DNA of 35,423 nucleotides from a virus. A program made the translations under genes and the position numbers. The stretch is from IMG/VR virus record IMGVR_UViG_3300020438_000123, positions 1 to 35,423 of that record. One strand, given 5' to 3'. The notes under the pieces are model-generated. The model was given only the letters and a program-made list of their open reading frames with translations, did no database searches and was not told the origin of the DNA. Below are positions 9,578-30,382 of the stretch, piece by piece; position 1 is the first letter of the stretch; the number at the start of each line of letters is the position of its first letter.

Positions 9578-9960
9578 AACACCTAAATCACTTTTTATAT
9601 GAAATGATGACTTCTGGTAGCGGAGGTGTTGCTGGAATGCACCAAAATGTAATTCCTACAGATGGACTACCACAAATTGGAGGAAGGGAAGCAGATCGTC
9701 TAGCAATTTCTCCACGGAAGAAGAAAAAAATCCGAGAAACATTCGCAGGTTGTCCCGTGTTTGAATTATCAAGCGACGAATATAATAAGTGCATGAAAGG
9801 TCGAGAAAAATATGAGAGATGGAATAAGAAATTAAATATGGAAGAAATGGGAAATCAAGATATCAGATCTTTTGCACATAAAAACCCCGGAAAGCCTATT
9901 GTAGTTAAAGATAGCACAACGGGTATTATGTCATACTTAATTCCACCAAAAACAGTATGA
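9574..9960 (+). CDS. Hypothetical phage protein
   Basis: 128 residues, overlapping the previous gene by four bases (ATGA). The sequence has a Gly/Met-rich start, a basic stretch (SPRKKKKIRET), one CPVFELS segment, a charged helical part, and a beta-like end with KPIVVKDSTTGIMSYLIPP. I do not recognise the family. It ends in an ATGA overlap with the short signal-peptide frame at 9957. Confidence 0.5.
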   Translation: MKHLNHFLYEMMTSGSGGVAGMHQNVIPTDGLPQIGGREADRLAISPRKKKKIRETFAGCPVFELSSDEYNKCMKGREKYERWNKKLNMEEMGNQDIRSFAHKNPGKPIVVKDSTTGIMSYLIPPKTV

Positions 9961-10454
9961 TTAAAATTATAACTATACTATGCTTGGCAGTTAGTAGTTC
10001 TGCCTTCGCAATGGAGGATCCCCCGAATGAGAGAGATAGTAATAGGCACATTGCTGCTAATGATGATAGGATGCGAAAGTTTACAGGAAACAGGATTGTC
10101 CCCAGAGAACGCTTCGTCAACTGTGGTAGACACTGTACGAGAACAGAGAGAGCAGACAGAAGAGATCACAGACGCTTCAGGAGCGATCACAGGGACGCTG
10201 GAGAGCATCAACGAGGAAGCGGACTCTATTTTAAATGGAATAGCACTCTCCCCAAACCAAAACAATCCCTTGCTGGACAGCATCGAAAACAACGCAGAAT
10301 CGATCAAAGAACATGTGGACGATGCGGAGAAAGAACAAATAAGAATAGAAGAGGCTCTAGAGGATTTAGAATCCGCGAACTCAAGGGTGGCTGCGGCAAT
10401 TGGACAAATCAAGGACTTAGAAGATTTAGTCCGGGACTACGAAGAATCCGATAG
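9957..10454 (+). CDS. Overlapping frame with signal peptide, doubtful
   Basis: This frame of 165 codons opens with an ATGA overlap on the preceding gene and encodes a clear export signal (MIKIITILCLAVSSSAFA, then MED). After about residue 25 it is Arg/His/Asn-rich and runs inside the lipoprotein gene at 10027 in another frame, so most of it may be fortuitous. It may encode a real secreted peptide, a leader that couples translation into the lipoprotein gene, or the remnant of a frameshift. Both frames start with membrane-targeting signals, which recalls nested spanin genes. Confidence 0.3.
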   Translation: MIKIITILCLAVSSSAFAMEDPPNERDSNRHIAANDDRMRKFTGNRIVPRERFVNCGRHCTRTERADRRDHRRFRSDHRDAGEHQRGSGLYFKWNSTLPKPKQSLAGQHRKQRRIDQRTCGRCGERTNKNRRGSRGFRIRELKGGCGNWTNQGLRRFSPGLRRIR

Positions 10455-10908
10455 AGAAGTCCGCAAAGAGGCACTTCAAAACCTACACAGTTTTATAACT
10501 CTGTTTTTCGTAGCAGGATTTGCCATGCTTGTAGGTGGTGCTTTTCTCACGTTCTGGGTTAGTGCAAAACTAGGTGGTGTTGTTTTGGCGATTGGTGTTC
10601 TTACCGTGGGGTTTGCATCAGCGTCTCAATTCTATCTCGAAGAAATTGCTACGATTGGACTCATCGTATTGATCCTTGGTATCGTTGCTTCACTTGGTGT
10701 TGTAGCATGGATGCTTATCGACGGAAGAAACGACAAAGAAGCGATCAAGGAAATAGTCCAATTAGTCGAAGAAATGAAAATTAGACTAACACCGGAAGAA
10801 AGAAAAGAAGTATTCGGTGTCGGTGGATATGCCGGTAAAGTTACTAGTTCTCTTACCAAGAAGATTATATCTTATGTAAAAATCAAAAACGGATTCAAGA
10901 AGATTTAG
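10027..10908 (+). CDS. Lipoprotein with coiled coil and three membrane segments
   Basis: 293 residues, with strong GGAGG nine bases before the ATG. The N-terminus (MREIVIGTLLLMMIGC) is a lipoprotein signal with Cys16. Residues about 30-150 are Glu/Gln/Asp-rich with the heptad-like character of a periplasmic coiled coil. Three hydrophobic segments follow, at about 153-178, 180-203 and 207-231, then a charged tail of about 60 residues. An N-terminal lipobox plus a C-terminal membrane domain is the plan of unimolecular spanins, although those have one C-terminal segment. It could therefore be a lysis or envelope-bridging protein. It ends in a 14 base convergent overlap with the resolvase gene. 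Confidence 0.65.
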   Translation: MREIVIGTLLLMMIGCESLQETGLSPENASSTVVDTVREQREQTEEITDASGAITGTLESINEEADSILNGIALSPNQNNPLLDSIENNAESIKEHVDDAEKEQIRIEEALEDLESANSRVAAAIGQIKDLEDLVRDYEESDREVRKEALQNLHSFITLFFVAGFAMLVGGAFLTFWVSAKLGGVVLAIGVLTVGFASASQFYLEEIATIGLIVLILGIVASLGVVAWMLIDGRNDKEAIKEIVQLVEEMKIRLTPEERKEVFGVGGYAGKVTSSLTKKIISYVKIKNGFKKI

Positions 10909-11458
10909 ATCTATATTCTGAGTGTAGTTTCTTACAGACATAATAAGAGTCTACGATATCACTCACTGGGTTTCCTATCTTTGTTTGTTTACAATCTAGG
11001 AGTTCCATCAAGTCTACTTTCGTCTCATCTACAAAAGAGTTATACATGAGTTCTTTGTCTGCGTTACCCTTACCTGTAGCAAACTTCTTGATGGATGAGG
11101 GTGAATATACTTCATAGGGTGTTCCATCATTGTAAAGTTTATATTTAAGAATACCAGTATTCTCTGCTATATGAAAAACTTTACCTGTAGAATTATATGA
11201 GTATCCCTCTAATCCAACTTGTTCGACATAATTGAGAACATCAATCGCCCAATCAGAGATACTCTTAAACCTTTCAGTATCTTCATTCCATTCATTGAAG
11301 TTCTTGCCAACTACATTCTTGAATGTTCCACTGTATTTTTTTGTGTCTGTTAGAAAGTATAACTTACATTTATTAAAAGAAAAACTTTCACTCTTCTTTG
11401 AAGCGTAAACACATATACTTGGACTTGTCATGGAATAATCGATGCCTGCTATTATCAT
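10895..11458 (-). CDS. RuvC-like Holliday junction resolvase (RNase H fold)
   Basis: 187 residues from the ATG at 11458, chosen for its GAGGAG site; a longer frame to 11497 runs into the protease gene. Motifs of the RuvC/RNase H fold are in order: AGIDYSMTSPSICVY with Asp7 on strand 1, LEGYSYNSTGK with Glu84, and PVSDIVDSYYV with Asp167 and Asp170. These acidic residues would hold the two metal ions. EVYSPSSIKKFATGKGNADK is also typical of RuvC-like phage and poxvirus enzymes. It would cut four-way junctions before DNA packaging, in place of T4 endonuclease VII. It follows the protease gene, behind a late-promoter-like motif. Confidence 0.8.
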   Translation of the reverse strand: MIIAGIDYSMTSPSICVYASKKSESFSFNKCKLYFLTDTKKYSGTFKNVVGKNFNEWNEDTERFKSISDWAIDVLNYVEQVGLEGYSYNSTGKVFHIAENTGILKYKLYNDGTPYEVYSPSSIKKFATGKGNADKELMYNSFVDETKVDLMELLDCKQTKIGNPVSDIVDSYYVCKKLHSEYRSKSS

Positions 11459-11477
11459 AGTAGTTTCTCCTCTACTA

Positions 11478-11485
11478 TATTTATT
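11478..11485 (-). promoter_or_regulatory. Late-type promoter motif AATAAATA
   Basis: On the - strand GAATAAATATAGTAGAGGAG carries a T4-late-like core whose TAA is also the stop codon of the protease gene. It lies 20 bases before the resolvase ATG. The same layout is seen at 27452 and 29057. Confidence 0.45.
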
Positions 11486-12185
11486 CCAAGTTTTCATCGA
11501 TCCAATTCCTATAGTATTTTACACTTATAGCAGAATTCTCACAAATTATTCCATCATCCAAAGCAAAGTATGACATTATTCCTACGAGTTTTAGTTTTCC
11601 ATTTATATAAGTAAATACACCACCACCCGAGTCTCCAAACCAAATAGTTGCTCTTATGGGTAAAAATTTAATATGTCCGGGTTCTTCTATCAGTCTTCCA
11701 AAGTATGAAAAGGCTTTAGGATCACTATATTTTTTATATCCTCTACTAAAACCAACCGTTACTAGTGGTGTTCTCCTTTTTAAAATATCACCCGTACCAA
11801 TAAGAGTGGTTGGTTTCACCGAACTATCACAACTTAAGAATGCTATTGCGATATCATTAGTTGTGTTTATATAATTTTTATGGATCAGAACCCGTTCTAT
11901 TAATATAAGTTCATCACCTATATTAAAGTAATAGACGATATCTCGTTCTACTACATGTGCTGCGGTTAATAGTTTATCAGATTCTATTAATACACCAGAT
12001 CCGATCAAATCACCTTCTTCGGTGATAATAGATCCTACTGACGGAAATGGATCGTATTCTTCGGTGGTGTAGAAGTATTGTAGTGCAGGAGTTGTTTCAA
12101 CGAGTTCATTATGATGTACAATTCCTACTGAACAACCGCTTACACATAACGAAACTACCAGAAATAATAGGCGTCTCAGTTTCAT
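11481..12185 (-). CDS. Secreted trypsin-like serine protease lipoprotein
   Basis: 234 residues. The N-terminus (MKLRRLLFLVVSLCVSGC) is a lipoprotein signal with lipobox VSGC, lipid on Cys18. The S1 protease triad is complete: LLTAAHVV (His77), TTNDIAIAFL (Asp111) and WFGDSGGGVF (Ser186, with the oxyanion Gly). A GSGVLI strand before the His is typical. The length matches a bare trypsin-fold domain with no PDZ part, so it is not a DegP-type chaperone. It should be tethered in the periplasm or outer membrane of the host. A TATAAATA motif lies 9-16 bases before the start and the porin terminator lies upstream. Possible roles are cutting host envelope proteins, superinfection exclusion or aid to lysis. 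Confidence 0.88.
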   Translation of the reverse strand: MKLRRLLFLVVSLCVSGCSVGIVHHNELVETTPALQYFYTTEEYDPFPSVGSIITEEGDLIGSGVLIESDKLLTAAHVVERDIVYYFNIGDELILIERVLIHKNYINTTNDIAIAFLSCDSSVKPTTLIGTGDILKRRTPLVTVGFSRGYKKYSDPKAFSYFGRLIEEPGHIKFLPIRATIWFGDSGGGVFTYINGKLKLVGIMSYFALDDGIICENSAISVKYYRNWIDENLE

Positions 12186-12193
12186 CTCACCAA

Positions 12194-12201
12194 TATTTAT
12201 A
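12194..12201 (-). promoter_or_regulatory. T4-type late promoter TATAAATA
   Basis: An exact TATAAATA on the - strand between the porin terminator and the protease ATG at 12185. The distance to the start is only 8 bases, so a transcript would be nearly leaderless and would keep little of the GGTGAG ribosome site. It could instead serve a shorter product or be fortuitous. Confidence 0.45.
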
Positions 12202-12229
12202 AAAAAACAGGCTGTTTTTTTGCTTAAAT

Positions 12230-12259
12230 AAAAAAAACAACCTTCCCAAAGGAAGGCTG
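12230..12259 (-). terminator. Rho-independent terminator after the porin gene
   Basis: On the - strand CAGCCTTCC, a TTTG loop and GGAAGGTTG form a 9 bp stem with one G-T pair, followed by eight T. It lies 30 bases after the porin stop. Confidence 0.9.
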
Positions 12260-12289
12260 CTTTCTTTTCAAATTCTAATCTGTTTTATA

Positions 12290-13381
12290 TCAGAAGCGAA
12301 TTTGAATTTGAGTGCGGACTAGGTATTCACCACTATCCACGCTGGAATTCCAGCCAGTGCTTGCAGTGTCCCAACCTACACCGATACCGTTAAGTGAATA
12401 GCCTACATCAGTAGTCCACTTAACATTATCGTTGAAATGATAATTGAAACCTGCGGTAACAAGACTCAGATCTTCCTCACCGGGAAGAGAACCGTACTCA
12501 TAACGAGCGAACGGTTGAACTGCATCCGAGAGAAAGTATGATGCTTGGAACTGGGTAGCCCAGTCATTACCAGCATCTTTATTTCTTCCGACATATGCAG
12601 CGTCAAAAGCAAAGTTTCCGAACTTTAGTCCAGTATCGAACGTATAAGTCCAGAAGTCAGTAGTGTCAAGATCGTTCCATGAAATTGCACCACCAACAGT
12701 CATCCAATCAGTTACATCATAATCTGCTCTTGCATTAAGAGCATAGCCGTTCTGTACACCGGCTCCATTTGCACTATTGAATCCATCATTATAAGAGGCT
12801 CGTAGACGGAGATCTCCAAATTCTTTACCGAATTGGATACCCTGCGAGCGTCCCTGTCCAAAGGTATATGTGACAAGAGAACGATCAGCAGTCAGAGTGT
12901 CTGCTGCATAAACGTCCCAAGACTTCATGAATGGACTTACGAATTGTCCAAACTTAAAGTTAACACCGGCGATATCTGTCGATGCATATGCATCCGTGAG
13001 ATCAAACTCACCACCGTTGTTATCGTACCACTGTCCACTAACAACGTAATCGAAATCATATACGCTGCCAGAGAACTGGAGGCGGGCGCGAGGTACATCA
13101 AATCCGTGATTTGCCTCTACACTACCACCACTATTATAAGAGAATCGAGTCTGTACGAAACCAGAAACGTCAAGCGTGATGGGTGAATCCACCGCACCTA
13201 GACTGACTCGGGAATTCGCATCTGCGAGAACTTCTTCTACAAGAAGTTTCGTCTGTGTACGTCGTTCCTCTTCAATTGACCAGTTTTCGTCTGCGGTTGC
13301 TGCATCAACTGCAACACCGAATACTAGACTGACAATACCAAGAATACCGTACTTAAACCACTTTGACTTAGTGTTATTCAT
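12290..13381 (-). CDS. Outer-membrane beta-barrel porin (OprO/OprP-like)
   Basis: 363 residues. A signal peptide (about 1-27, KYGILGIVSLVFGVAVDAA) is followed by a short helix with EEVLADANSRVSL (about 48-60). The barrel then starts at LDVSGFVQTRFSYN and shows alternating hydrophobic strands and aromatic girdles to the end. The last residues VRTQIQIRF end in Phe, the outer-membrane assembly signal. The RARLQFSG and WYDNNGGEFDLTDAYAS segments recall phosphate-selective porins O/P. The helix resembles one I recall from porins of marine planctomycetes, which is a weak host clue. A porin in a T4-like phage is unusual; it could replace host uptake or alter a receptor. It lies 22 bases after the Cys-rich small gene. 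Confidence 0.85.
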   Translation of the reverse strand: MNNTKSKWFKYGILGIVSLVFGVAVDAATADENWSIEEERRTQTKLLVEEVLADANSRVSLGAVDSPITLDVSGFVQTRFSYNSGGSVEANHGFDVPRARLQFSGSVYDFDYVVSGQWYDNNGGEFDLTDAYASTDIAGVNFKFGQFVSPFMKSWDVYAADTLTADRSLVTYTFGQGRSQGIQFGKEFGDLRLRASYNDGFNSANGAGVQNGYALNARADYDVTDWMTVGGAISWNDLDTTDFWTYTFDTGLKFGNFAFDAAYVGRNKDAGNDWATQFQASYFLSDAVQPFARYEYGSLPGEEDLSLVTAGFNYHFNDNVKWTTDVGYSLNGIGVGWDTASTGWNSSVDSGEYLVRTQIQIRF

Positions 13382-13403
13382 AGTAGTTCTCCTTTATGTA
13401 AGA

Positions 13404-13613
13404 TCAGCCGAGGCCGCTTACGGTATCCCATGCCCACTGAATGGCATCTTTAAACCAAACAACACCATCCCACGCGAATGGTACTAGAGCAAGACTGATG
13501 AGGGTAGAACGAGTAACCCCTAACTTGCATAGTGTACAACGAACAAAATCTTTCTCACACGTTTCTGTAACAGGACATTCTGACTTGCTACAATTTACTT
13601 TGGTTCCACTCAT
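13404..13613 (-). CDS. Small Cys-rich protein with one membrane segment
   Basis: 69 residues from the ATG at 13613, which has AAGGAG upstream; a longer frame to 13700 would run through a terminator-like hairpin. The N-terminal half has six cysteines (CSKSEC, TCEKDFVRCTLCKLG), probably a metal-binding or disulfide knot. A hydrophobic segment (LISLALVPFAWDGVVWF) follows, with a Trp-rich end. It is the first gene of a two-gene unit with the porin. Its job is unknown; it might help porin delivery or act at the inner membrane. Confidence 0.65.
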   Translation of the reverse strand: MSGTKVNCSKSECPVTETCEKDFVRCTLCKLGVTRSTLISLALVPFAWDGVVWFKDAIQWAWDTVSGLG

Positions 13614-13636
13614 AGTTATCTCCTTGTGTTGAACCG

Positions 13637-13665
13637 AAAAAATTAAGGGGGCACTCCGCCCCCTT
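13637..13665 (-). terminator. Intrinsic terminator or leader attenuator
   Basis: On the - strand AAGGGGGC, a GGAGT loop and GCCCCCTT form a perfect 8 bp GC-rich stem, followed by AATTTTTT. It lies 24 bases before the ATG at 13613. It could end the reductase transcript, or act in the leader of a transcript started at the promoter at 13687-13714. Confidence 0.8.
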
Positions 13666-13680
13666 GTACGAAAACTGAAT

Positions 13681-13719
13681 TGTTCTATTATATAGAACAT
13701 TTTGGGTATAACAACCCAA
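13681..13719. repeat. Two palindromes in the porin-unit control region
   Basis: TGTTCTAT and ATAGAACA (13681-13688, 13692-13699) form an 8 bp inverted repeat around TAT. TTGGGT and ACCCAA (13702-13707, 13714-13719) form a second one. Together they overlay the candidate -10 and -35 boxes, as operators often do. Confidence 0.6.
13687..13714 (-). promoter_or_regulatory. Candidate sigma70 promoter for Cys-rich protein and porin
   Basis: On the - strand TTGTTA (13714-13709), a 16 base spacer and TATAAT (13692-13687). The -10 is perfect and the -35 matches four of six. Transcription would start near 13680 and meet the GC-rich hairpin within about 15 bases. Confidence 0.45.
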
Positions 13720-13745: not shown

Positions 13746-15713
13746 TCAGCCGGTAAGATCTACAATTTCACAACTGTTTCCACTACAGGCAAGTGTTTGA
13801 GTGCCTGATGTGTTGTCTTCCTTTTCATACTTACTTAGTTCTTCCCAGTTTATGCTCGTAGGCATATTCTTCAAAGACTCTTTATAATCACTTTCTGTAC
13901 AATCCTGATAAGGTGCTTGCTTGTAACTATGATCGGAGAAAGGTAGGAAAGATACACCGCAAACTTCATTGAAATTAGAGTATACCCATGCACCTACCTC
14001 AAACCACTCATCTTCCTTTACGGTAATAGTAATAGATGGCTTATGTTCACACCAATGCTTTTGATATACCAACCACAATTCCAACTGTTCAATGGCTGTC
14101 ATGTCTTTTCTACAAACAGCACCTTTCGGTGACTTCATTGGGAAAGAAAACACAGTTACATGTTCTGGTTTCATTACATCTGCTTCGTTAGGGAATCCTG
14201 CATCCTTCATAAACTGACACAGAGGATCCTTATTGTCTGCACGAACAGTACGAATATAATAGTCGTTGTGACGAGCGTGGATCCCTGATGCAGCGTCTAC
14301 GAGTTGAGATACAGTCCCAGACGGTTTTACGCATGTAATTGATACCGAAGAATTAATACCGATCTTATCCGCCTGTTTTTTATTCTCTTCAATTGAACAC
14401 TTCTTCAGGCTCTCAAGTCTAGACTCCAGATCTTTCTTGGATCCGTTTGTTAGTGGGTTGTCCATTATACCTGTCATGGATACACCAAGAAGTCTTTCGT
14501 CTTCGCAGTTCTTCGCCCACTCACTAGAAAGGTACTTGAAGTTAGTAAGTGTAGACTGCCAAGTTCCTAGTATGGTTGCTAGTCTAACCTTTCTCTGTAG
14601 ATCTTCTTCTGTGTCATCTCGACGAACTACAATTTCAGTAAGGTTACAGAATTCTCTATCCCGAAGAATAATCTCACTGCACGGATTTGTTCCAAAATCA
14701 TGATCAACTTCTCTCTGTCGATAATCATCTCCGAGAGATTTTCTGTATTCATTCGCTCTTTTAATTTGATTCTTAGCAGCATCTCTATTAAAAATGCCAC
14801 GTTCACCAGACTTACTCTTATAAAGAGAAAGCCACTCTTCCATAAAAGTTCCTACTTCTGGTTTTTCTTTATATGCAACAGAGTTGTTTGACAAGGCTCT
14901 TTGTGGATCTGACATCCACCATTGTCCCGTCTTCGCTTCCCGCATTCTTTCGTCCGTGAGCGACGAGAGGGAAATAAGGGCACTTCTTCGTACTCCCCCA
15001 ACCACGACAATTTCTGCAATCTTGCAGATGAGATCGTGACATTCAATGGAATTGAGTTTTCTTCCAGAAGCCTTCTTATAGGTATCCACCGTGAACCTAA
15101 ACAAATCATCCAAAGGATCCGGTCCGGAAGCACGACCACCGAAAGTTTTAAGTCTTGCCCCCGCAGGCCTAATTTTAGACAAGTCCCATTTTGGAGATTG
15201 ACCAGCAATAAGTAGGGATGTAAGTTCCCTGTAGGCTTTCGCCCAACCCATCTTGCTATCTTGGACAACAATCGTAGTATCACTGTCCTCAAACTCCTCT
15301 GCAATGGTTGCGAGTTTACCTAAGAAATCCCTCTCAACACTGAAACCAACACCAGTACCACACATCAATGTGTAAAGAATTTCATCAAAGGAACGAACTC
15401 TACCAGCACTGGCAAAAGAACAATTATATCCTGCGATATTATCTCTCTTGAGTGCTTCACCCGCAGTCATCAACGCTCTCATTGACGGCATAATCTCAAG
15501 ATTTATAACCGCTGTTTGGAGTTCGTCTCTTTCTTTCTTTGAGACTTTATGATTATGATTTTCACTTAGATGTTCTACGAAAAAATCAAAGTAACGGGTT
15601 ACAGTTTCTTCCCACGATTCCCTTTTACCTTTATCGTCCATCCACCTAGAATATCTTGAAAGATGAATAAAATCTTGATATAGACTGGGTAGACCAGTTC
15701 GCTCATTGTCCAT
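13746..15713 (-). CDS. nrdJ: Class II (B12-dependent) ribonucleoside-triphosphate reductase
   Basis: 655 residues. It makes dNTPs from NTPs using adenosylcobalamin, so it needs no oxygen and no R2 subunit. The active site fits the monomeric Lactobacillus type: GYNCSF with Cys98, and NPCSE with Asn343, the thiyl Cys345 and Glu347. Cys356 lies 11 residues on, where the second redox Cys is expected. The tail SGNSCEIVDL keeps a Cys pair five residues apart (643 and 648) for re-reduction. It is shorter than the about 740-residue Lactobacillus enzyme. A TAGGAG ribosome site and a TATAAATA motif lie upstream. It follows thyX, so the two complete a nucleotide supply unit. Class II enzymes are common in marine phages. 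Confidence 0.93.
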   Translation of the reverse strand: MDNERTGLPSLYQDFIHLSRYSRWMDDKGKRESWEETVTRYFDFFVEHLSENHNHKVSKKERDELQTAVINLEIMPSMRALMTAGEALKRDNIAGYNCSFASAGRVRSFDEILYTLMCGTGVGFSVERDFLGKLATIAEEFEDSDTTIVVQDSKMGWAKAYRELTSLLIAGQSPKWDLSKIRPAGARLKTFGGRASGPDPLDDLFRFTVDTYKKASGRKLNSIECHDLICKIAEIVVVGGVRRSALISLSSLTDERMREAKTGQWWMSDPQRALSNNSVAYKEKPEVGTFMEEWLSLYKSKSGERGIFNRDAAKNQIKRANEYRKSLGDDYRQREVDHDFGTNPCSEIILRDREFCNLTEIVVRRDDTEEDLQRKVRLATILGTWQSTLTNFKYLSSEWAKNCEDERLLGVSMTGIMDNPLTNGSKKDLESRLESLKKCSIEENKKQADKIGINSSVSITCVKPSGTVSQLVDAASGIHARHNDYYIRTVRADNKDPLCQFMKDAGFPNEADVMKPEHVTVFSFPMKSPKGAVCRKDMTAIEQLELWLVYQKHWCEHKPSITITVKEDEWFEVGAWVYSNFNEVCGVSFLPFSDHSYKQAPYQDCTESDYKESLKNMPTSINWEELSKYEKEDNTSGTQTLACSGNSCEIVDLTG

Positions 15714-25325: not shown

Positions 25326-25790
25326 TTAAAATGTAAGTGTCATTGTAATAGTTATATTATCCGTGTCATTAAGATTGTTACCATTCCAAAAAGTACTGGC
25401 ATCATCATTACTTGTTCCTAATCTGAATTGAGGCTTAGAGTTAGTACCACCCATAGTGATGGTTTCTGCCGTAAGAGTATTAGATCCTACAGTTATTGAA
25501 GCAGAAGTAATATTTTCTAATATCAATGCTTTAGTTCCATACAAACCAGAAGATTCATCTGAGTTATTTACTTTAAATCGAATTGAATTAGTACCAAATA
25601 AATCCCATTGTTGGTTAGATGAAAAATCAGAGAATTGATCTGCAAGATCTCCACTCTCAGATCCCGTTGAATCCTGTTTTCTTCTTCCTGCCTGTACAGT
25701 TCCACGGACAACTGCGTTATCAGTTTGAGCCGTGTAAATATACTGCGGTGCAGATGATTGCGTAGGGAAAAATAACCAGTGAGGACTCAT
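25326..25790 (-). CDS. Fibre-associated hypothetical protein
   Basis: 154 residues, overlapping the fibre gene by four bases (ATGA). It is rich in Ser, Thr, Asn and Gly, with beta-type sequence throughout, such as ASITVGSNTLTAETITMGG and DTDNITITMTLTF. It lacks cysteines and long helices. The composition is that of a receptor-binding or fibre tip protein, and the coupling to the fibre gene supports that. No family is recognised. Confidence 0.55.
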   Translation of the reverse strand: MSPHWLFFPTQSSAPQYIYTAQTDNAVVRGTVQAGRRKQDSTGSESGDLADQFSDFSSNQQWDLFGTNSIRFKVNNSDESSGLYGTKALILENITSASITVGSNTLTAETITMGGTNSKPQFRLGTSNDDASTFWNGNNLNDTDNITITMTLTF

Positions 25791-27433
25791 AGCGTTGTTG
25801 TATACTCCACGTTAAAGATAACATCAAGAGCAGATGAGTTACTAGAAGTTACGATAGTGATCACTCCATCGGCGGCAACAGAAGTGTTTGCAAGTGATGT
25901 CTGATTTCCACTCGAATCACTCACACTCGCTGCTTTAACTGTATCTGATCCGTTCTTCAGGGTAGCAGTCACCGTACCAGACGCAGACTTAATATAGAAC
26001 CCAGTAATCGTTCTTGCCGTCGCAACCTTTGGATCTAGCGTGTAAGTTTTATCTGCTGCTGTTTCAATTTGACCAGTATATGAATCAGTTCTGGTGGCAG
26101 TTACCAATCCTGTTCCATCACCAAACGTAATACCAGAAGAACTTAAAGTTATACCGCTGAGAACGGTTGTAATTCCACCAACATTCAAGGCTTCCCCGAC
26201 AGTAACTCCTTGAGCGAAGTTAGTCGTTTGACTGAATTCTGCACCCTGAAAATCGAAGTGGTGATGTGGATTCACTCGCAGATAACCAACATTCGCTATG
26301 TTCGCCATTGACAAACCAGAAGTAGTTTCTATCTGAATGTTTCCTTGTTCTCCACCGATTGTCTGGACTGCACTGACTAAGTTGGGAATAACGTAAACAT
26401 ATACAACGTCACCAACCGATGGACTAGTATCGACTTCGATACCACTAGTGTCTGTTATGGTTAAAAGAGTTCCACCAGATCCGTCACTTGATACTGATGC
26501 TTTGCTAACTTCATCTGCCTCTATAGCAGCAATCATCAACTCAGAACCATCTTCTTTCAGGATTTGAACAAAACCACCATTCGCAGCGAAAAGATCACAA
26601 ATCGTATCAATATCATTTCCGTTTGCATCCACGCAGTTAATAGCGAGAATATCAATTGCAGTTCCTGATATATTTGATGCCATCTTGACACCGCCGGGTT
26701 GTGCAAGATCCGAAAGACCTGTATGTGTTATAGTATACTTGAGTCCTGCACGGAACGCTGTTCTCTGTGTTGTTCCATCTGCGAATGTAATTCCACCTAC
26801 ACCAACTGTTATACCGTGTGCTTGAACTAATCCATTTGCGAATGAGACACCCCCTACATTTGTCCTTGTTCCGTTGGAATCCAAGAACGAATTGTCCCCA
26901 GCAAACATTTCAATGTTGTCTACAGTGAAATCGATATAGGTATCAGGATCTCCTCTATGTCGAATCTTCTGTTCAAAATCTACCACAGTTGAACTGATGT
27001 CTAGAATCCCACCACCGAAATTAAGTGTCATTGCTTCGGTGTCACCTTGGACTGAAATTGTTCCGTCTTCTTGTAGGACTAGATGATTTGCTTTTACAAT
27101 ACCATTAAATGTTGCACCACTGGCTACTACTCCACCACTTGCAGTGATACCACCAACAACCTCCAGAGCCTGTGAAGGACCTGTGGTTCCGATACCCAAT
27201 CTATTGTTTGTGTCATCCCAAAACAGAACTTCAGCAGCAGGTCCGATGGTAGATCCTTCAACTCCCTCTGGAGTATAGAATGCAACATAACCACCAGTTC
27301 CGGTTGCAATAGAGTCTACATCACCATCAGCAGAAACTTTGTCCCATGCTACACCGTTGAAGTTCCAAGACTTACCAGAGAAGGTAAACTTGTCTCCATT
27401 ATTTGGACCGGTTGGAAAATTAATCTTTGACAT
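25787..27433 (-). CDS. Tail fibre or virion appendage protein
   Basis: 548 residues, with GAGGAA before the ATG. The N-terminal part (about 1-40) has KFTFSGKSWNFNGVAWDKV, a repeat type used in phage fibre proteins. A beta-rich shaft follows, with RLGIGTTGPSQALEVVGG and the repeated GITFADGTTQ pattern (also GVSFANGLVQ and GITFGDGTG), typical of trimeric fibres. A middle domain with HTGLSDLAQPGGVKM and a C-terminal beta domain (TARTITGFYIKSASGTVTATL) complete it. No peptidase or lyase motif is visible. It probably binds the host surface, and forms a unit with the collagen-like fibre upstream. Confidence 0.75.
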   Translation of the reverse strand: MSKINFPTGPNNGDKFTFSGKSWNFNGVAWDKVSADGDVDSIATGTGGYVAFYTPEGVEGSTIGPAAEVLFWDDTNNRLGIGTTGPSQALEVVGGITASGGVVASGATFNGIVKANHLVLQEDGTISVQGDTEAMTLNFGGGILDISSTVVDFEQKIRHRGDPDTYIDFTVDNIEMFAGDNSFLDSNGTRTNVGGVSFANGLVQAHGITVGVGGITFADGTTQRTAFRAGLKYTITHTGLSDLAQPGGVKMASNISGTAIDILAINCVDANGNDIDTICDLFAANGGFVQILKEDGSELMIAAIEADEVSKASVSSDGSGGTLLTITDTSGIEVDTSPSVGDVVYVYVIPNLVSAVQTIGGEQGNIQIETTSGLSMANIANVGYLRVNPHHHFDFQGAEFSQTTNFAQGVTVGEALNVGGITTVLSGITLSSSGITFGDGTGLVTATRTDSYTGQIETAADKTYTLDPKVATARTITGFYIKSASGTVTATLKNGSDTVKAASVSDSSGNQTSLANTSVAADGVITIVTSSNSSALDVIFNVEYTTTL

Positions 27434-28495: not shown

Positions 28496-28624
28496 TCAGA
28501 CAAATACTATTTGAGTGACTTTTTTCTTCTGGATTTGTACAGACTCGACTTTTTGATTATTCAGAACTCGTTTTTTTGTGGGTGACTTTTTTACTAATTC
28601 ATTCGTTGTTATTTTTAGTTTCAT
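28496..28624 (-). CDS. Small basic peptide (42 aa)
   Basis: A short frame starts with an ATG that overlaps the stop of the 137-residue gene (ATGA). It encodes 42 residues beginning MKLKITTNELVKK, very Lys/Gln/Val-rich, ending QIVFV. It fills an otherwise empty 143 base gap and ends 19 bases before the collagen-like gene. AGGTG before the ATG is a modest ribosome site. Translation coupling and placement argue for a real gene. Function unknown. Confidence 0.5.
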   Translation of the reverse strand: MKLKITTNELVKKSPTKKRVLNNQKVESVQIQKKKVTQIVFV

Positions 28625-29034
28625 CTAGTCACCTCTCCATTACAATCAAACCTACCCTCTACAAGTCTAGTAACAACACCGGAAGGGTTTCTTAATTCCA
28701 AATCATATTGATGAATTCCTTCTGGAATAAGACTAGTAGAAGTCGCCCCTGCTATAACAAGAATACCTCCAGTAAGATCTCCGGTATTACCCATATTTCT
28801 ATGAAGAGATATTCCACCAGTCAATCCTGCACCTGTGTGTCCAGTATTTCCGCAGGTTATTCCGGTAGGTCCGGCAACATGTAGAAGTTTTTCTCCGGAC
28901 ATAACGGATCTTCTAACCTGCATCTCTCCAGACCAACCACGGATATCAATAGGATTACCATCCTCATCCAAATATTGAAAATGGAGGTACAGTGAAGATC
29001 CTTGATTTGCTTTAATATCGTGTTTTGCTGACAT
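28621..29034 (-). CDS. Baseplate or fibre-base beta protein (BppU-N-like)
   Basis: 137 residues, with AGGAT before the ATG. The start DIKANQGSSLYLHFQYLDEDGNPIDIRGW and the end LELRNPSGVVTRLVEGRFDCNGEVTR match a beta-sandwich family used at the base of phage fibres and baseplates (similar in pattern to the N-terminal domain of lactococcal BppU). A Gly/Thr-rich loop lies in the middle (GNTGHTGAGLTGG). It heads the fibre unit, behind a CATAAATA motif at 29057, and overlaps the next small gene. Confidence 0.6.
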   Translation of the reverse strand: MSAKHDIKANQGSSLYLHFQYLDEDGNPIDIRGWSGEMQVRRSVMSGEKLLHVAGPTGITCGNTGHTGAGLTGGISLHRNMGNTGDLTGGILVIAGATSTSLIPEGIHQYDLELRNPSGVVTRLVEGRFDCNGEVTR

Positions 29035-29056: not shown

Positions 29057-29064
29057 TATTTATG
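29057..29064 (-). promoter_or_regulatory. Late-type promoter motif CATAAATA
   Basis: On the - strand ACATAAATATACC. Its TAA is the stop of the glycosyltransferase gene. It lies 22 bases before the ATG at 29034 and would start the fibre unit. Confidence 0.5.
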
Positions 29065-30382
29065 TCTTTTTCTTTTTGTAGCCTGCTCTAGGAGAAATTT
29101 TTGTACTCTTCTTTGGTTGTGTTGCCCTTTGTTTTTTCTCTTCCTTTTTCTGATCTCTCTCTTTTCTCTTCATCTCTTCTTCTGCCATTTTTCTATGCAT
29201 TTCTGCTTGTGCTTCCTGCGTATGAATTTGCATGAGAACCTGATCGTATTGTTTTAGATTTTCAGATACTCGGGGGAGATGTTCGTCTGGTATCAATTTT
29301 TCTTCTACTAATTTCTTACAAGCCTGATATCCCAGATGTGGTTTACCTGCATAGAAAGCAGTAGCACCAATCTCATCTAAAACACCATACTTATATACAT
29401 CGTCCTGAACAAAAAGAATGTCCTCTTGTGGATAAGGAATATCTAATGCCATTTTTGCATACATGTATGCTAACTTAGGTCTGTTATGAATCTGACGAAG
29501 ACAACGTGCGATCTGGTACAGAGGTTCTGCTCTCTCTGGACGAGACTCATAAGAGTCTAAGAATGCTTGATGAATCTCTTCCCAAGATTTATCTAATATC
29601 GCCTTAATCATTGCGACTCTATACAAAGAATAGAATACCTCTTCTGGCCATCCACCCATCTCCGCTCTCTTCTGATATGCAACGAGAGACTTTTCATATT
29701 GCTGAGAATCGAAGTAACTTTGTGCCAGATAGAATTGATATCTAGAGTTTTCTGGTTCATCCTTTAACGCTTCTTCTAGATGTTCTGCATCCCGTGAATA
29801 CTTTTCTACCGTGGTGATGCCTACATTTCTTGCACCTTCAGTTCGTGCTTCGACTTTATACTCACCTAAAATTTTTAGTATCTTATGTTCTTCTGGTGGT
29901 TTTGGTATATTTGCATATTCATGAAGAACACCAACATAATGCCACCCCACACCAGTTTTAAATATCTGGTTTCTCCACCATGTGAAATCTTCTCCTCTAC
30001 CAATTCGTAGAGTATATGAATCTTGATCCATAACTGGTGGATATTTAAAGTTTCCAGTTATCATATCATCCGCATCGATAACCCAAGCATAGTCTGCTTT
30101 ACCGTCACAGTTTCTCAAAGACTCTGTTCGTGAACCGATCTTATCACCAGAGTCTCCGAAACCTTTCCAGTCAGAAAGATATACCTCTCCGGGAACTTTA
30201 TGTTCATCCATGAACTCTTTAATAAGTTCTGGAGTTCCGTCTGTTGATCCCGTATCTGTAATATCATACCTGTCGATGTAGGGAAGCATGGACTCTAAAC
30301 ATCTTTTGATAACGTGAGATTCGTTCTTCACAATCATGCAAAGTGTAACTGACGCGGGTTTATCTATCTTCTTAACTTTCAC
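29060..30382 (-). CDS. GT2 glycosyltransferase with TPR-like repeats
   Basis: 440 residues. The N-terminal 230 residues are a GT-A fold: VTLCMIVKNES, DITDTGSTDGT (nucleotide site) and WVIDADDMI (DxD-type metal site). The middle (about 195-340) has TPR-like helical repeats (AEHLEEALKDEPENSRYQFYL; ESRPERAEPLYQIARCLR). The C-terminus is a very basic coiled coil (MAEEEMKRKERDQKKEEKKQ). The SunS-like plan suggests modification of a protein. The start is GTG with GAGGTGATC before it, nine bases complementary to the 16S tail. It may glycosylate the fibres encoded next to it. Confidence 0.85.
   Translation of the reverse strand: MKVKKIDKPASVTLCMIVKNESHVIKRCLESMLPYIDRYDITDTGSTDGTPELIKEFMDEHKVPGEVYLSDWKGFGDSGDKIGSRTESLRNCDGKADYAWVIDADDMITGNFKYPPVMDQDSYTLRIGRGEDFTWWRNQIFKTGVGWHYVGVLHEYANIPKPPEEHKILKILGEYKVEARTEGARNVGITTVEKYSRDAEHLEEALKDEPENSRYQFYLAQSYFDSQQYEKSLVAYQKRAEMGGWPEEVFYSLYRVAMIKAILDKSWEEIHQAFLDSYESRPERAEPLYQIARCLRQIHNRPKLAYMYAKMALDIPYPQEDILFVQDDVYKYGVLDEIGATAFYAGKPHLGYQACKKLVEEKLIPDEHLPRVSENLKQYDQVLMQIHTQEAQAEMHRKMAEEEMKRKERDQKKEEKKQRATQPKKSTKISPRAGYKKKKT

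Follow-up and report, generated by a model that had tools for sequence, protein, structure and literature searches.

A porin gene pair and an independently inherited lipoprotein protease gene between nrdJ and ruvC in an uncultured lineage of T4-type phages

Why would a T4-type phage carry, between its ribonucleotide reductase and RuvC genes, three genes whose products all look directed to the envelope of the host, and do the three belong together? The question is raised by a 35.4-kb virus record (IMGVR_UViG_3300020438_000123; 35,423 nucleotides), the whole of which is referred to here as the window. On its minus strand, reading from nrdJ, the order is a Cys-rich gene, a porin gene, a trypsin-like protease gene and ruvC, and all three envelope-type genes are intact, in agreement with the original prediction. 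The upstream neighbor nrdJ (13746..15713, minus strand) encodes a class II ribonucleotide reductase (PHROG 367, E 3.5e-188), is syntenic in relatives and anchors the position of the locus. The downstream neighbor (10895..11458, minus strand) encodes a RuvC-like Holliday junction resolvase (PHROG 159, E 7.6e-29), a non-envelope product that is ordinary for such phages; the range 10895-13613, put forward as an envelope cassette, therefore takes in the three envelope genes but also this resolvase.

By its sequence the phage is a member of an uncultured, Kyanoviridae-related T4-type lineage that has mostly been seen in seawater. The window DNA polymerase is ∼53% identical to a cyanomyovirus polymerase, and a T4-like polymerase and replication genes are among the PHROG matches of the window. 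A 157-kb relative shares 58% identity in the capsid, 50% in the portal and 60% in gp55 with Pelagibacter phage Mosig EXVC030M (Kyanoviridae), and encodes gp55- and gp33-like late-transcription genes. For RuvC, Mosig ranks with the best cultured matches (44%), and its primase – nrd – ruvC order is the same; unlike the window, it holds here nrd genes of class I, one small ORF and ruvC, and none of Cys-rich gene, porin and protease lies between nrd and ruvC. At this position the window therefore has a class II gene and the cultured relative class I genes; nrdJ scores in the lineage split into two groups, of about 870 and 1200 bits. Primase and thyX overlap in the window and are separated by a 964-bp insertion in the related contig L003. 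Elsewhere in the window, ORFs at 25787-27433 (548 aa; no PHROG or Pfam match) and 28621-29034 (137 aa; no Pfam match) lie near a glycosyltransferase gene (29060-30382).

The gene following nrdJ (13404..13613, minus strand) encodes a protein of 69 aa with five Cys, in which an N-terminal Cys cluster precedes one hydrophobic segment (STLISLALVPFAWDGVVWF). In 21 relatives, two to five Cys stand ahead of a single hydrophobic segment, and the protein has no match in Pfam, PHROG or NCBIfam. It is probably anchored in the inner membrane.

The second gene (12290..13381, minus strand) encodes a 363-aa putative outer-membrane porin with a Sec signal and a C-terminal Phe, and its placement near Porin_O_P/Porin_4 is indicated by its orthologues. 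The window copy itself matches no Pfam model, so that its description as a porin in the original prediction holds through its relatives: orthologues 95 and 88% identical to it pass the curated cut-offs of Porin_4 and Porin_O_P (L002, Porin_4 5e-10, above the curated cut-off; L003, Porin_O_P 1.3e-8, 34.9 bits against a cut-off of 20.9). In the wider family, Porin_O_P is matched by 8 of 24 members at E 0.01 and Porin_4 by 2 of 24; Phe is the last residue in all 24, and a hydrophobic N-terminus with AXA, resembling a Sec signal, is present in most. Full-length cellular homologues exist, and the one tested, whose contig bears the title Phycisphaerales, gives a Porin_O_P match of 1.2e-15. AlphaFold models of the porin and the protease, made from alignments of only three and two sequences, have pLDDT values of 28 and 34, and a PDB profile search with the porin gave no match; because both models are poor, the barrel fold, a 16-strand trimer in Porin_O_P porins, is predicted from the sequence families. 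Relative to Porin_O_P (PF07396; OprO/OprP-type, phosphate-selective) and Porin_4 (PF13609), the phage proteins share cut-off-passing orthologues, the GQFK-PF motif and the C-terminal Phe; they differ in that the match to the Porin_O_P model is partial, with the window copy falling below it, and phosphate selectivity is known for the OprO/OprP type.

The third gene (11481..12185, minus strand) encodes a trypsin-like serine protease of 234 aa with a VSGC lipobox (C18, with Ser at +2) and the triad H77, D111 and S186. It matches the Pfam Trypsin model (4.2e-11; 43.5 bits against a cut-off of 20.6) and also Trypsin_2, and has the catalytic H/D/S residues with GDSGG that define a trypsin-like serine protease. 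C18, H77, D111 and S186 are invariant across 29 of 29 aligned relatives, which bears out the lipid-anchored, trypsin-like protease proposed from the window alone. PHROG 9683, annotated "protease", is matched by the window protein and, in all, by 23 of 29 proteases compared; as in that group and the phage proteases of trypsin family S1 the H/D/S triad is kept, whereas the invariant lipoprotein signal, the ruvC neighbor and a late-promoter motif set the present family apart. None of the 29 relatives has Asp at +2, which under the enterobacterial rule indicates the outer membrane, where the protease is predicted probably to sit.

The original prediction treated these genes as one combination, and this can be judged from their distribution. 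Searches with the L003 porin fragment recovered 45 viral loci and searches with RuvC recovered 80, from which gene maps were drawn with iterated profiles; after removal of near-duplicates, 52 distinct loci span nrdJ to ruvC. Of these, 12 carry the pair of Cys-rich gene and porin together with the protease, 8 the pair alone, 17 the protease alone and 15 none, so that the expected co-occurrence of all three in other viral contigs is found at 12 of the 52. The Cys-rich gene and the porin occur together at 20 of the 52 spanning loci, are both absent from 32 and are never found singly; the only exceptions over all loci are three contigs on which the end of the porin is cut off. The two genes are an obligate pair. 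The protease is present at 12 of 20 pair-bearing and 17 of 32 pair-free loci (odds ratio 1.3; Fisher p 0.78, the p-values for loci being descriptive, since related sequences are non-independent draws) and adjoins ruvC even at porin-free loci. It is thus inherited independently of the pair. L003 has no protease and still has the terminator that follows the porin and a TAAATA motif ahead of ruvC. A single three-gene cassette is ruled out by these data, as the genes are not gained and lost together and the protease has its own inheritance and, as described below, its own late-type promoter motif. In L115, a sulfotransferase gene (11923-12522, minus strand; Sulfotransfer_2, 8.5e-18) is sited between porin and protease. 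The statement that none of the three genes is normal in a T4-type phage stands for cultured phages but not for the uncultured lineage, in which porin, Cys-rich gene and protease are common and the porin is conserved in part of the lineage; porin and protease are absent from the 50,697 phage records searched, and the porin was not found in the plasmids searched.

The original prediction also raised the possibility of assembly joins. A rival explanation would be such a join or the recent capture of host genes, with no function for the phage. Porins and trypsin-like proteins have a cellular origin and cellular homologues of this porin exist, and nevertheless this explanation is exceedingly improbable: the genes recur at the same position in dozens of viral contigs, the porin is found on contigs reaching 157 and 126 kb, a fully supported branch (100/100) of a tree separates 24 phage porins from 21 distant Planctomycetota homologues, and dN/dS over all three genes is 0.04-0.14 (0.04-0.11 for the Cys-rich gene and 0.09-0.13 for the porin), which corresponds to purifying selection. 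The recurring synteny, the long contigs, the monophyly of the phage porins and the low dN/dS rule out an assembly join, and the shared location across dozens of further contigs together with purifying selection indicates that the genes are not there by chance.

The signals ahead of the genes likewise differ between pair and protease. A sigma-70-like promoter candidate for the pair, TTGTTA-N16-TATAAT, lies at 13687..13714 (minus strand); its 10/12 match is no rarer in shuffles of that region alone. Of 34 distinct loci among relatives, 24 have a near-consensus TTGACA-N16/17-TATAAT ahead of the Cys-rich gene, where mononucleotide shuffles predict 0.3. The 5′ leader of the pair (13614..13686, minus strand; fold z -1.9) contains a GC hairpin (13645-13665) followed by a T-run, an arrangement that is attenuator- or terminator-like. 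In relatives, the leader (L015:3031-3168, L026:5871-6012, L110:9132-9259 and others, ahead of the Cys-rich gene) has three hairpins with compensatory changes, amounting to 10 covarying pairs and 31 double-sided cells compared with 4.7 and 10.1 in shuffles and at most 7 and at most 12 in slid controls; a fourth stem-loop, whose loop reads (C/U)UAGCC, was selected by eye. Over 525 kb, a covariance model of the leader matched only the position ahead of the Cys-rich gene, including that of L107, L109 and the partial locus L123, all left out of model building; comparison with Rfam gave no credible match. In the window, L002 and L003 the promoter is weaker, and their leader, diverged from the family leader, is missed by the covariance model.

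Downstream of the porin is a terminator-like hairpin with a T-run (CCTTCC-TTTG-GGAAGG; 12230..12256, minus strand), which L003 has too, and the T4-type late-promoter octamer TATAAATA follows at 12194..12201 (minus strand), upstream of the protease. The octamer is found 15-26 nt ahead of the start in 21 of 47 distinct protease genes and in none of 74 Cys-rich or porin genes (p 7e-11, again descriptive). NTAAATA is also seen in the 157-kb relative, where it stands ahead of genes for the portal, the prohead core and the baseplate but ahead of no replication gene among those checked; in the window ATAAATA can be read ahead of ruvC (11478-11484, minus strand). From these motifs, the pair is probably expressed early in infection and the protease late. 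The octamer is also found at nrdJ in 12 of 53 loci, which makes late read-through into the pair possible.

Given these results, it is proposed, with a little more belief than doubt, that two independent envelope modules lie between nrdJ and ruvC, an early pair with a porin channel and a late lipoprotein protease; that these phages rebuild the host envelope in some manner is probable. The first module would be a two-gene operon for an inner-membrane Cys-rich protein and a Porin_O_P-like outer-membrane channel, probably made early by the host polymerase because a strong host-type sigma-70 promoter is present in most relatives, and the structured leader would modulate its expression. After export through Sec/BAM, the porin would supply an additional or substitute channel for small nutrients, anionic or organic, during the shut-off of host expression; its Cys-rich partner may aid porin assembly or couple the porin to the inner membrane. 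The second module would be a late lipoprotein protease that cuts back proteins of the host surface or periplasm as infection draws to a close. The weak promoter of the window itself, and the difference of its leader from that of the family, count against the proposal. An extended form of this proposal, in which porin and obligate inner-membrane partner constitute an early trans-envelope transport device, with a leader that senses solute or host state, serving the whole lineage on hosts that include Planctomycetota, is improbable.

Phage PA-2, a temperate lambdoid phage, carries the Lc (NmpC-like) outer-membrane porin, and in phage T5 the outer-membrane lipoprotein Llp is a known receptor-blocking format. 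By analogy with the role proposed for Lc, the phage porin could displace a host receptor porin, with the protease clipping leftover receptors, so that superinfection is excluded or the receptor changed; the early promoter in relatives would suit rapid exclusion and the outer-membrane lipoprotein format would be that of Llp. This reading is rather unlikely, though it deserves some weight, as the protease, besides its independent inheritance, bears a late motif that would place it too late for early protection, and porin segments resembling exposed loops are among the most conserved parts of the protein. Conservation peaks in the loop-like DGFNSANGAGVQ (mean 0.94), and GQFK-PFM-E ... FGQGRSQ gathers many of the invariant residues, which favors a functional pore over a diversifying surface; the strong conservation of loop-like segments speaks more for transport than for camouflage. 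In the GQFK-PFMKE segment, 22 of 24 rows keep a Lys and a Glu that the window and L002 have lost, and the solute selectivity of these two porins may therefore have shifted; the sequence itself points to no particular solute.

A contribution to lysis or release has also to be weighed. A gene on the plus strand at 10027-10908, convergent with ruvC and retained in many relatives, encodes a product with a lipobox, a long coiled coil and two TM segments that resembles a one-piece spanin; it is overlapped in another frame by a signal-peptide ORF (9957-10454, plus strand) that is open in L002 and L003 too. The protease, perhaps with the small TM protein, might weaken the outer envelope together with this spanin-like lipoprotein, the porin being incidental, and both the late-type promoter motif of the protease and the features of the neighboring product would fit. 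Such a role is nonetheless a doubtful candidate, given the early-type promoter of the pair in relatives and the lack of the protease at about half of the spanning loci.

The porin also bears on the identity of the host. A first genome scan with a three-row porin alignment gave no match; a pattern scan of 84,980 species with a 24-row alignment gave two confirmed relatives of the porin, each from a contig whose title names the Planctomycetota or one of its members. The porin profile is matched in 106 of 294 Planctomycetota genomes, the only phylum sampled with the profile. Dockerin-like GDxNxDG modules are found in phage proteins of the lineage (L090:12508-13098, L100:6846-7433, L106, L110:14605-16428), and such modules are common in Planctomycetota; these motifs are no marker of the porin because they are found in relatives with and without it. 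One Planctomycetota bin contains a DNA polymerase relative, which was dropped as a host clue because its gene context is different, and no T4-type phage isolate of Planctomycetota turned up in the literature searched. The chances that the host is a member of the Planctomycetota appear about evenly balanced.

Phage porins have been known from scattered cases. Like Lc of PA-2, the present protein is a phage-encoded outer-membrane porin, and unlike Lc it occurs in a T4-type lineage, is of another porin family and has an obligate Cys-rich partner. A viral OmpL porin encoded beside glnK-amtB has been described in oceanic viral contigs, with a Bacteroidetes host proposed (PMC8115048); that gene, too, is a porin gene on marine viral contigs, but the present one lies between nrdJ and ruvC and has a Cys-rich TM gene as its partner instead of nitrogen genes. 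A literature search of incomplete coverage found no description of the Cys-rich/porin pair, the protease or the leader.

In the present case a porin is conserved in part of a large uncultured T4-type lineage, and tied to it are a small membrane protein not described before and a leader RNA that covaries and has no Rfam match. The nearest cellular porin relatives detected point to the Planctomycetota as a candidate host phylum. Supplementation of the outer membrane during lytic infection becomes testable, and the promoter types give separate predictions, that the porin would be made early and the protease late.
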